DNA from: Gloeocapsopsis crepidinum LEGE 06123
Lineage (GTDB): Bacteria; Cyanobacteriota; Cyanobacteriia; Cyanobacteriales; Chroococcidiopsidaceae
Direction of reading: 5' to 3'
NCBI RefSeq assembly: GCF_015207655.1
Contig: NZ_JADEWN010000018.1
Location: 1 to 64,000 of the forward strand
DNA length: 64,000 bases
Shown in pieces: positions 39,517 to 45,583 of the stretch. The first letter of the stretch is position 1. Each line of letters starts with the position of its first letter. The translations under genes and the position numbers were made by a program. Below the pieces are notes generated by a model, which ran no database searches, was not told the origin of the DNA, and saw only the letters and a program-made list of their open reading frames with translations.

Positions 39517-39824
39517 CTTGTAGATCACCTTTGACTGATACAACTAAAAAGAAGAATGTTTTATTCTGGGGACTGGGCGTAAGTTATCATCTCTTCTATT
39601 TGAAATTACTTTCAAAATTGAGCACTCTATCAAAAGGAAGCTTTAAAATTTGCACAACAGTGTATTTTTCTATACGTGGTTGTCTAATTCTGACTTATTG
39701 TAGAGGTAATAATTTTAGTTATTAATAAGTAAATAAACTACTACTTAGATATTCTAAAAAAAATATTAATCAATACATTAAAATCGCGATCGCCAAGCTT
39801 GAAATATTGAATGCGCCCAAACCC

Positions 39825-41276
39825 ATGAGTAACAAATCCAGTAACTACGACCCGCGCAAAGCTAAATGGAATAATATTATGCTTGATGCTTGGGAACCAA
39901 GCAACTGGAAGCAGTGGAAGTCTAAAGCAAATAAAGATGAGTCTGTGACTATCGAGCGCGAATATCTCAGAATAAAATATGCAATTCAACTGGCTAACAA
40001 TGCTCTAAGCCTAGATAAGGTAAAAGTTAAACTCAAGCTAACTACAGCTAAATCAATTGGCTTGCAAGGTACTTTTCCTTGTAAACCTGGCGACGTAGGT
40101 AAAAATGGAAGTTCTAATAAGCAATACACAATTTCATTGGGGTTTCCTGCGAGTGATGCTGGTGTAAAAACGGCTGTCGCTAAAGCACGAGAATTAGACT
40201 TACTGTTAATGACAAAGCAATTTCAGTGGACACCGGAATTGGGTAAGCAAGCTCAAAGAATTGTGCTAATACATGATACCGCAAAACCGATTAGTGAATT
40301 AATTCAAGAATACGAGCGAGAATTTTGGAAGACTCACGAGAAGAATCGCCAAGGATTCCGTACTTGGGAAACACATTATCTGCGACATCTTAAAAAACTT
40401 CCTCAAGATGTTCCCTTAACTCAAAAAGCCTTAGAACAAGCTTTAGAATCAGTTCCACCCAATACCTCAACAAGGTTTTATTTAGCTTGGCAACTCAAAA
40501 AGTTTTGTGATTTTTGTGGCGTTGATGGTAATAAAATTATTGATTCGTATACGACTCCTCAACCATTACCAAGTCTTCGCAAAATCCCTACTGATGAAGA
40601 GATCATTCAAGGCTTTGATACAATGGGAACTCCTCTATCACCCTACGCCAGCAAGGAAAATTTAACGCAACCCCAACAGTGGCAATGGGTATACGGAATG
40701 TTAGCTACCTACGGTTTAAGACCTCATGAATTATTTGCGATAGACCTTGAAGCTTTCACAACCCCATCTAATATATTTCATCTAGTCACACTTGATCCTA
40801 GTCTTACAGGTGGTACAAAAACAGGCGAACGTACGTGTGGAATTCCACCGTTACATCCGCAGTGGGTTGAGTTATTTGATTTAAAAAACATCAAGTTCCC
40901 CAATACCGGAGGAACTTTAAATAATCAAACTGCTAAAATTCACATTCGATTTAGAACAGCGCATTTAAATTTTAAACCTTATGATTTGCGACACGCCTAT
41001 GCTTTACGCGGACATCGCTTGCGTATCCCGATCAAAACTATGGCTGATTATATGGGACATACGGTACAAGAGCACACGAAAACCTATCAAAGATGGATAA
41101 ATGAAGATACAAACTTAGAAATTTATAAAGAAATAGTTATTCACAAAGTTAATACTCGAGAAGCACTCAAAGTCAGGGTAGATGAATTAGAGATTGAAAA
41201 TGCTGTCCTCAAAGCTGAAATTAAGACTTTGAGGGAAATAGTTATCAAACATCAGCTGGGTAAACTACTGAGTTAA
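39825..41276 (+). CDS. Orphan tyrosine recombinase (site-specific integrase)
   Basis: The protein of about 483 residues has catalytic positions of the phage-integrase family: Arg in ATYGLRPHELFAI, HAYALRG context in YDLRHAYALRGHRL, the GH in DYMGHTVQEHTKTYQRW, and a terminal Tyr there. The last 45 residues form a coiled coil. Such large integrases are common in cyanobacteria, sometimes in developmental excisions. No tRNA, excisionase or direct-repeat att site is seen nearby. A TTG start at 39807 is possible. The target is unknown. Confidence 0.83.
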   Translation: MSNKSSNYDPRKAKWNNIMLDAWEPSNWKQWKSKANKDESVTIEREYLRIKYAIQLANNALSLDKVKVKLKLTTAKSIGLQGTFPCKPGDVGKNGSSNKQYTISLGFPASDAGVKTAVAKARELDLLLMTKQFQWTPELGKQAQRIVLIHDTAKPISELIQEYEREFWKTHEKNRQGFRTWETHYLRHLKKLPQDVPLTQKALEQALESVPPNTSTRFYLAWQLKKFCDFCGVDGNKIIDSYTTPQPLPSLRKIPTDEEIIQGFDTMGTPLSPYASKENLTQPQQWQWVYGMLATYGLRPHELFAIDLEAFTTPSNIFHLVTLDPSLTGGTKTGERTCGIPPLHPQWVELFDLKNIKFPNTGGTLNNQTAKIHIRFRTAHLNFKPYDLRHAYALRGHRLRIPIKTMADYMGHTVQEHTKTYQRWINEDTNLEIYKEIVIHKVNTREALKVRVDELEIENAVLKAEIKTLREIVIKHQLGKLLS

Positions 41277-43200: not shown

Positions 43201-43530
43201 ATGAATAACCAAGATAAGACTGATCATAAGCCTACAAATGCCACAACACAGACACCAACCCCGCTGCGTTGTTTAACAGGATCTCTCATTTCTGGGGGAC
43301 TTGCGATCGCACTCTACTCGCTTACTGCTGCGATCGCTCAAACTTTTGCCGCTAAACCAATTCATTCTGATAATCCAGCTGTTATTAACATCGCCTCCGC
43401 AGTTCGTACTTTAGTAGTAGGAATTACTGCATTAGGTACTGGAATATTTGGTTTAGTCGCCCTAGGGTTAATTGGCTTAGCAATTCAAATTCTAATTCAA
43501 CAAGCCACCAAAAAAGGTTCACCTAGTTAA
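43201..43530 (+). CDS. DUF3082-like small membrane protein
   Basis: The 109-residue protein has a polar, threonine-rich N-terminus, then two hydrophobic segments (about residues 25-48 and 58-97). Motifs such as LTGSLISGGLAIALYSLTAA and RTLVVGITALGTGIFGLVAL resemble the cyanobacteria/plastid DUF3082 family, which is predicted to be a thylakoid or inner-membrane protein. It starts five bases after ispE, so it is in that operon. The function is unknown; the family label is from pattern memory. Confidence 0.72.
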   Translation: MNNQDKTDHKPTNATTQTPTPLRCLTGSLISGGLAIALYSLTAAIAQTFAAKPIHSDNPAVINIASAVRTLVVGITALGTGIFGLVALGLIGLAIQILIQQATKKGSPS

Positions 43531-44169
43531 ATCATCACACTATCATCGTTTACTGTCGCGGCGATCGCTTGGTTCTTTTTCAGATATAACACTGATTAGG
43601 AAGGAAATGATATGACCCGCGATCATTTCACTATGCTTTCAATTGTTACGTTTTCCTGAATAAAAGAACCGTAGTTACAAAAACGAGCTTTTTGTTAGGT
43701 GCGAGACACATTTATCAGGCTTTCCTCCGCTTCTTACCTCTTTTGAAACTTCATTCTTTGCAATTCTTATTTTTATCTCAACTTTTCCCCACACATTCCC
43801 CATTTTTTCCACAGGTAGATCCAACTTTTTCCACAGGTAAATCCAGTTTTTCCACAGGTCGTAACGTTAAATAATCATTTGATGGCGGATCTGTGGATTT
43901 TGTCTGTTGTTACTGTCTTTGACCTCAATACGGAGATTATGTAAAGTTGTGTAATAAAAATTAGCCTAAAAGGTTGATTTTCGCGTGAAGATTTTTTTTT
44001 TCTAAAGTCTCTCGTAATATTTCGCAGCATTGACTAGCTGGTGATTTATGTCGCACAATAATGCACCTACCCGCTATTAGCTTGACTACTCTTCTATGGT
44101 GGGGAAAGCCTCAGAAAGCTTGAACTAGTCCGCAAGAATTCTTGTCACCTTTATTTAGGGAGATCCTCA
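43531..44169. promoter_or_regulatory. 639-bp gap with a DnaA-box cluster, candidate replication origin
   Basis: Three exact TTTTCCACA boxes sit at 43805, 43827 and 43848, each as TTTTTCCACAGGT and spaced 21-22 bp. A looser TTTTCCCCA is at 43783 and an inverted TGTGGATTT at 43892. TTTTCCACA is the DnaA box form described for cyanobacteria. An AT-rich segment with a run of T follows at 43950-44010. No protein gene is credible here. This may be oriC or a titration site for DnaA. Confidence 0.55.
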
Positions 44170-44370
44170 ATGAACGCTACAGTTAGTATCCTGACCGAAA
44201 TTCCTGAAGAACTACACGAATCGCTCAAAATCTACTTAGAAAGCCATCCCACCTGGGATCAAGATCGTGTATTTACTGCCGCGCTATCGTTGTTTTTGCT
44301 TCAAAATGGCAATGGCGATCGCCGTGCTGCTAGAGTCTACCTCGAAAGCTTATTCCATCACTGCAACTAG
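44170..44370 (+). CDS. DUF2811 family protein
   Basis: The 66-residue protein reads MNATVSILTEIPEELHESLK, then ESHPTWDQDRVFTAALSLFL and YLESLF. This matches the cyanobacterial DUF2811 pattern in my memory. GGGAGATC sits seven bases before the ATG, a good ribosome binding site. The helix-rich fold looks like a ribbon-helix-helix relative, so DNA binding is conceivable. It starts directly after the DnaA-box gap. Function is not known. Confidence 0.78.
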   Translation: MNATVSILTEIPEELHESLKIYLESHPTWDQDRVFTAALSLFLLQNGNGDRRAARVYLESLFHHCN

Positions 44371-44410
44371 ACAGCTAAAATCAGCGAGAACGTACTGAAG
44401 ATTGAAGATT

Positions 44411-44503
44411 GCTATATTTTTTTTGTATAGCACTTAAAATTTCAAATAACAACTTCATACTAGTAGCGGCTGCCTTCCACCAAGAAAAGATGTTGCAGCC
44501 GCT
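44411..44503. terminator. Two hairpins between convergent genes
   Basis: Hairpin one is GCTATA...TATAGC (44411-44431) around a T-run. Hairpin two is a 9-bp perfect stem AGCGGCTGC...GCAGCCGCT (44465-44503) with a 21-base loop. They separate the DUF2811 gene and the response regulator gene and likely terminate both. Confidence 0.5.
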
Positions 44504-44531
44504 TGACAATTTTACTATTTGTGTATTTGGG

Positions 44532-45242
44532 TTAATTGTTCGACTCTGGGAGATTTGGAGCTTCAAATTTATAACCAACACCACGAACAGTCTGAATCAA
44601 AATAGGTTGAGTTGCATCAATCTCGATTTTCTTGCGTATTTGACCAATATGCACGTCTACAACCCTCTGATCTCCCACGTAATCGTAATCCCAAACTTCT
44701 TGAATAAGTTCTGCACGTCGCCACACTCGCCCTGGATGGCTAGCTAAAAAACGCAACAAGTCAAATTCCAGAGCCGTTAAAGGAATGAGTTGATTATTCA
44801 GTGTAACCTCCCTACGCTCAGGATCAATTACCAGCTTTTCAAAGGTCAAGCGCTGTTTTTCTGCTGCTGTGACAACTCGCTGACGCTTCAAAATAGCAGC
44901 AACTCTGACTTCTAATTCTCCTAAACTAAAAGGCTTGGTTAGATAGTCATCTGCACCTTGAGCAAATCCCCGAATTTTGTCAGCTTCATCAGCTCGACTC
45001 GTCAACATTAAGACGAAAACCTTTGTGCGATTCTGCATATCTTGGCAAAGAGTATAACCAAGTACATCCGGAAGATTAACATCAAGAATCACTAAGTCAG
45101 GGTTAAATTGCTCAAAAGCAGTTAACGCAGTCTTGCCATCTTCGGCAGACTCCACCTGATAGTTCTTGCTTGATAAGAAGCGTTGGATTAAATTACGGAT
45201 AGCAGGATCGTCATCAACGACAAGAATCTTGGCAAGAGCCAT
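44532..45242 (-). CDS. OmpR/PhoB family response regulator
   Basis: The protein of about 236 residues has a receiver domain with the acidic pocket (ILVVDDDP), the phosphoacceptor Asp in DLVILDVNLPD, and the Thr and Lys in LMLTSRADEADKIRGFAQG and YLTKPFS. The C-terminal winged helix contains LTALEFDLLRFLASHPGRVW and VRGVGYKFEAP. It differs from RpaA and RpaB in the receiver, so I give no symbol. No kinase gene is adjacent. It converges on DUF2811 and diverges from CPP1. A short upstream frame starting at 45251 is possible. Confidence 0.87.
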   Translation of the reverse strand: MALAKILVVDDDPAIRNLIQRFLSSKNYQVESAEDGKTALTAFEQFNPDLVILDVNLPDVLGYTLCQDMQNRTKVFVLMLTSRADEADKIRGFAQGADDYLTKPFSLGELEVRVAAILKRQRVVTAAEKQRLTFEKLVIDPERREVTLNNQLIPLTALEFDLLRFLASHPGRVWRRAELIQEVWDYDYVGDQRVVDVHIGQIRKKIEIDATQPILIQTVRGVGYKFEAPNLPESNN

Positions 45243-45251
45243 AGTCATCAC

Positions 45252-45583
45252 TTTTTACAACAAACAAAAGGATCAGTCGGTATACAAATGTTGCGATCGC
45301 GCAAGTTCAGCAACAAAAACGGCAATGCTTAAACAATTATCAGCTTATAAGTCCGTAATGCCAAGCGTCTTCCGCAATTCTACTATTGCTTTTTATATAT
45401 AATGACGGAGAGACAAATTATTCAGTGTTTCTCTCACTCGAAAACTCGGGTTGTGTTAAATTGAGTAGTGGTAATCTTTAGTCGATGGTTAAATTAACCT
45501 GGTCAGACACTGATAAGGTATTTCAATCGACACAATCTGATATTAAGCTTTCCTTTACTGGCTGCTCCCGCGATTGAGTCAAC
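45252..45583. other. Divergent promoter region for response regulator and CPP1 gene
   Basis: The 332 bases hold a 13-bp perfect palindrome, GGTTAAATTAACC, at 45487-45499. A -10-like TATATATAAT lies near 45395. No ORF or RNA gene is seen. The palindrome could bind a regulator. Confidence 0.4.

Follow-up and report, generated by a model that had tools for sequence, protein, structure and literature searches.

The window analysed here, a stretch of 64,000 nucleotides, lies on contig C37 of a cyanobacterial draft genome (5.67 Mb, 150 contigs). Between a DUF3082 open reading frame (ORF; 43201-43530) and a DUF2811 ORF, it contains 639 bp free of genes, as a sequence-only reading of this DNA had noted. 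The same reading had described three exact DnaA boxes in tandem, accompanied by looser boxes of which one is inverted, and had taken the cluster for a candidate replication origin. Every one of these boxes was recovered (Table 1).

Table 1 DnaA boxes, promoter-like elements and downstream gene at the locus (window positions).
Feature	Position	Strand	Remark
AT-rich element TTTGCAATTCTTATTTTT	43757..43774	+	conserved; 91 bp ahead of last box
Looser DnaA-like box TTTTCCCCA	43783..43791	+	identical in 9/9 aligned family sequences
Partial box ATTCCCCA	43795..43802	+	11-bp register between neighbours
DnaA box TTTTCCACA	43805..43813	+	exact
DnaA box TTTTCCACA	43827..43835	+	exact, 22 bp on
DnaA box TTTTCCACA	43848..43856	+	exact, 21 bp on; last of tandem array
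Inverted degenerate box TGTGGATTT	43892..43900	-	44 bp past last tandem box
HLR1-like direct repeat (candidate RpaB site)	43938..43955	-	TGTAA-N5-TGTAA at 43940-43954
Conserved GTAATATTTCGCAGCATTGACT with -35-like TTGACT at 44030	44014..44035	+	182 bp past last box
-10-like CACAAT	44054..44059	+	spacer 18
DUF2811 (PF10929) gene	44170..44370	+	66 aa; gene tracked by array

The published cyanobacterial DnaA box is the very 9-mer found here, TTTTCCACA (PMC4674748), and with their 11-bp register, the first three boxes in the window stand only 2 bp apart, which Escherichia coli DnaA prefers (PMC11317965). Across the genome, the 9-mer is not enriched, with 66 sites in 5.67 Mb as compared to 64 for the reversed pattern. 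The DnaA-box signal is one of clustering, not of 9-mer frequency: the genome list of clusters with at least three boxes within 150 bp comprises only the window array and a second cluster beside dnaN on contig C50. Paired boxes (4-34 bp apart) occurred in 50 of 60 genomes—the relatives plus the genome itself—as opposed to one match overall for the reversed pattern.

Inspecting 49 relatives returned 87 box-cluster regions, 36 of which were associated with DUF2811, 20 with dnaN or dnaA, 15 with guaA, a CDF-type transporter or a 119-aa protein, and 16 with other genes. In 36/36 of the DUF2811 regions, this gene lay downstream of the boxes on the same strand; the upstream genes varied. Two boxes on one strand, separated by 19-23 bp and with at most one mismatch each, were present within 800 bp at 78 of 80 named DUF2811 loci, the remaining two being truncated by contig ends. 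In a larger collection, 205 loci matched DUF2811, and 195 of them differed in their last 260 bp upstream. Here, a stricter test that required one box of the tandem pair to be exact succeeded for 163/193 distinct upstream regions and failed for 30/193, in comparison with 0/778 control windows and none in five shuffled sets that preserve dinucleotides; these counts are not independent, given the many Nostoc-type loci and some species shared between the two collections. ispE and DUF3082 were also considered as the linked gene and rejected, as in several relatives the array lies far from ispE yet upstream of DUF2811.

One genome (G008) harbors two DUF2811 paralogues (L092 and L093), each preceded by its own box array. 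Five DUF2811 loci had no anchor box (L228, L298, L277, L314 and L322). Two of these belong to family f41 (L277, L314) and another is the weak second match of genome G032 (L322); all three are among the 30 regions without the tandem pair, and not every DUF2811 copy thus has an array. Family f41, with genomes of 1.6-3.0 Mb, is probably picocyanobacterial. DUF2811 is present in two or three copies in these small genomes, and the upstream box layouts differ. The phylum sample holds 27 DUF2811 matches from 12 genomes of this family, and all of their upstream regions were read: in eight, a strict inverted box lay exactly 44 bp from a strict box, with no strict tandem pair. Among the remaining loci, some had a box with a near box 21 bp past it, some a lone box and some no box at all.

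The layout from the array to a promoter-like element stood out best among nine sequences from the family of the window and was traceable in a set of 87 loci. A box preceded the anchor by 21 bp in 86/188 loci and by 22 bp in 79/188. The helical phasing proposed in the sequence-only reading is supported, and the spacing is widely conserved. Downstream, an inverted TG(T/G)GGA was detected in 150/188 loci, as compared to 0/380 shifted control windows, with a first choice of anchors that made use of the match to the inverted box at +44 and was thereby biased towards this result. Re-picking anchors without the inverted box left 182/190 unchanged, and the motif was then found at +43 to +46 in 144/190 loci. 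ATTCC(A/C)CA was present in only 49/188 loci within the stretch searched, so that part is not general. Ahead of the boxes, an element near TTTGCAATTCTTATTTTT (at most four mismatches) was found in 140/191 loci versus about one in shuffles which—like those used for the AGCATTGACAAG and HLR1 counts—preserve base composition only. At L298, a near copy of it is retained though the boxes are gone.

HLR1 is defined as two (G/T)TTACA(T/A)(T/A) octamers with 2 nt between them (PMC9241938). Read by eye, the first of these octamers or the second is exact in the window copy, and the other deviates at two positions. An HLR1-like repeat (at most two mismatches) occurred in 78/139 representatives versus about 17 in shuffles, with 62 of the 78 at +92 to +94. 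Further downstream, 128/195 loci carried a motif near AGCATTGACAAG (at most two mismatches), which contains a -35-like TTGACA. The distance from the last box to the -35-like element was 182-184 bp in 105/126 loci, counting loci at no more than two mismatches and with the motif sought only from -260 to -40; anchors chosen without the inverted box gave the same count. Over the same search range, the distance from the promoter-like motif to the ATG varied between 62 and 256 bp. The rigid unit is therefore the array plus the promoter-like element rather than the array plus the coding region. An Rfam search of 43400-45500 returned one match, below its gathering score.

The datA and DARS box clusters of Escherichia coli are non-origin sites that act on DnaA. 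A site of this kind—titrating DnaA or switching its nucleotide state, and merely neighboring DUF2811—would fit the ordered geometry of the boxes, the inverted one included, and their location well upstream of the coding region, as well as the existence of another cluster in the convergent CDF/guaA gap of a number of relatives. However, the window-type array differs from datA and DARS in its fixed promoter-like distance and its linkage to a single gene family. The fixed spacing of 182-184 bp between the array and a conserved promoter-like element (105/126 loci) and the constant orientation towards DUF2811 (36/36) both argue against a titration or switch site, as does the variable distance from the dnaN cluster (~1.5 Mb in G003, 0.57 Mb in G013 and 0.90 Mb in G006). 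We consider such a site unlikely.

As for the cluster in the CDF/guaA gap itself, its boxes (spacing 20-22 bp) lie between the CDF-type transporter gene and the convergent guaA in 15/87 regions (L068, L095, L105, L140 and others), and it may be viewed as a candidate titration or datA-like site. Reading the guaA flank of the window's own genome (L365:300-1560) revealed no box cluster. A further 16 clusters in relatives were without matches to DUF2811, dnaN/dnaA or guaA/CDF in the sequence retrieved around them (L071, L081, L098, L099, L103, L112, L113, L115, L116, L127, L134, L135, L142, L143, L144 and L148).

With respect to gene content, dnaA was present in 236/291 and DUF2811 in 237/291 genomes of the order: 225 had both genes, 43 neither, 12 DUF2811 only and 11 dnaA only. 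The two genes were thus concordant in 268/291 genomes and discordant in 23/291 (Fisher p = 4e-30, ancestry ignored). Among the 255 genomes that are at least 90% complete, the corresponding numbers—from tallies and by eye—were 206 with both, 35 with neither and 7 in each of the discordant classes. Of 89 genomes of the photosynthetic class in the phylum sample, 76 had both, 10 neither, three DUF2811 only and none dnaA only. A control gene, the one for the small cyanobacterial protein DUF3082, was found in 109/110 genomes of the order, and the sole negative, G248, is 71% complete. On an IspE tree of 57 relatives, which is too weak for counting independent losses, the double loss required four changes on the best tree, one of them forced by well-supported branches, and a test of independent pairs gave no significant result. 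Group codes hint at three or more distinct double-loss events: in f14 and its neighbors, in f33 (G102, G188 and G194 lack both genes, most of the family has both), and in genus g23 (G034 and the incomplete G248 lack both, G235 has both).

Strict boxes were fewer in 5/5 examined genomes without a dnaA match, out of the 12 DUF2811-only genomes. In G030, no box was left and the AT element and promoter motif were retained; three strict boxes occur in its dnaA-positive congener G057. G221, G373 and G186 had 1, 1 and 0 strict same-strand boxes, respectively, versus two in a dnaA-positive congener (G182); G186 retained one strict inverted box and has stops inside its DUF2811 frame. G039, a 95% complete draft, showed no strict box upstream of DUF2811; since two paired strict boxes persist next to its dnaN (L117), the lack of dnaA may be no more than an assembly gap. 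Judged by these comparisons, box decay without dnaA points to DnaA as the probable ligand of the array.

The repeats might instead be operators bound by some other protein that recognizes a sequence resembling the DnaA box. Several of them read TTTTCCCCA or TTTTCCTCA rather than TTTTCCACA, and strict boxes are missing ahead of DUF2811 in all four examined genomes of genus g14 (3.7-4.0 Mb; L290, L294, L302 and L303): its arrays read TTTTCCCCA and dnaA is present, a point also counted against a DnaA-controlled promoter. A shift in DnaA use or specificity in this genus is possible. Against a non-DnaA operator, the strict boxes are identical to those of the dnaN cluster, and where dnaA is missing DUF2811 is usually missing as well and the examined arrays are weaker. 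That the same 9-mer makes up both the genome's own dnaN cluster and the published box was counted in favor of DnaA as the ligand, and we regard a different binder as improbable.

The proposal that the cluster is a candidate origin was not supported. Cyanobacterial origins have been found beside dnaN, with TTTTCCACA boxes (PMC4674748), and GC skew has been reported to be irregular in many cyanobacteria (PMC7198777). While the window array shares this box with cyanobacterial oriC regions and is itself a cluster of consensus boxes, neither dnaN nor dnaA lies beside it: dnaN is on C50, where four strict boxes fall within 143 bp (C50:12528-12670) together with looser boxes and a long AT-rich flank, and dnaA is on C98, where no box is listed. 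Three consensus boxes, an AT-rich neighborhood and a gene-free gap would suit a chromosomal origin, or a second one. However, the dnaN-linked cluster is larger, the window-type array follows a gene rather than a chromosomal position, and it is kept in Nostoc-type loci, yet Nostoc 7120 has been reported to replicate independently of DnaA (PMC7198777). An origin at this locus is therefore highly improbable. A chance arrangement or a neutrally evolving tandem repeat, for which the lack of genome-wide 9-mer enrichment might speak, is excluded by conservation (163/193 DUF2811 upstream regions versus 0/778 control windows and none in five shuffled sets) and retains a negligible probability.

The boxes lie upstream of DUF2811 and are conserved with it (36/36, 78/80 and 163/193 in the three comparisons above), and we consider it likely that the feature is the DUF2811 upstream control region, shared by many cyanobacteria, and a promoter controlled by DnaA—and probably by RpaB as well—in a manner resembling sda. 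From the conserved layout, we infer the following course of events. DnaA, probably in its ATP form, would bind the strong and weak boxes, which are lined up in helical phase, together with the inverted box, and the resulting nucleoprotein complex would form at a fixed 182-184 bp from the promoter. The light/redox regulator RpaB would bind the HLR1-like site between array and promoter, and the two proteins would jointly set DUF2811 transcription from the putative TTGAC(A/T) promoter. As to the sign of this regulation, our guess is activation. The array sits far upstream of the -35 element, which is unusual for a simple operator and was counted against a DnaA-controlled promoter.

Sda is a small protein. 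In Bacillus subtilis, its gene is directly activated by DnaA from boxes in the promoter region (PMC8203912, PMC4447404). As a non-oriC DnaA-box cluster upstream of a gene, the sda promoter is the nearest worked-out parallel. Different from sda, the array described here combines tandem boxes spaced by 21-22 bp with an inverted box and an HLR1-like site and keeps a fixed distance to a promoter-like element, and genomes that lack dnaA usually lack DUF2811 too. Promoters with HLR1 sites for RpaB likewise contain two TTACA-type repeats in a 10-bp register (PMC9241938), but here the repeat lies ~90 bp upstream of the -35 element and is combined with a DnaA-box array. Within the collection of papers covered, literature searches on DnaA boxes, origins, clusters, regulons and RpaB with DnaA listed no report of this module and, for cyanobacteria, no such combination.

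The 66-aa product matched the Pfam DUF2811 profile (PF10929) with 105.2 bits at a cut-off of 26.6, besides one weak unrelated match, and a search of the same collection of papers gave no hit for DUF2811. Searching PDB sequences with this profile returned nothing at E below 0.6. Two AlphaFold models of low confidence (pLDDT 57 and 65) consisted of helices only, and fold searches with them gave no convincing match and no ribbon-helix-helix chain among the matches listed; this absence does not speak against a possible resemblance of DUF2811 to ribbon-helix-helix DNA-binding proteins, a lead of our own. A role for the DUF2811 protein in the DnaA pathway is probable.

Because DUF2811 and dnaA are usually missing together, feedback on DnaA is plausible. 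We tentatively suggest—granting it somewhat less than an even chance—DUF2811 to be a dedicated cyanobacterial DnaA partner in a feedback loop, in which DnaA and RpaB would set its transcription and the protein would tune initiation or a DnaA-dependent checkpoint. If true, such a loop would explain both the usual absence of DUF2811 without dnaA and the persistence of the array in lineages that no longer need DnaA for replication. The role of DnaA in DnaA-independent cyanobacteria was left open in a previous report (PMC7198777), and DnaA binding to oriC has been reported to drop in the dark (PMC6478999). The locus provides one concrete candidate DnaA target—a defined site, a defined gene and testable mutations—and a possible meeting point of light or redox state, by way of RpaB, and replication control.

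Elsewhere in the window, a large ORF of 489 aa (39807-41276) adjoins rsmA and, by our own reading, shows integrase-like sequence features. Its homologues occupy the same position in close relatives (L086-L090).
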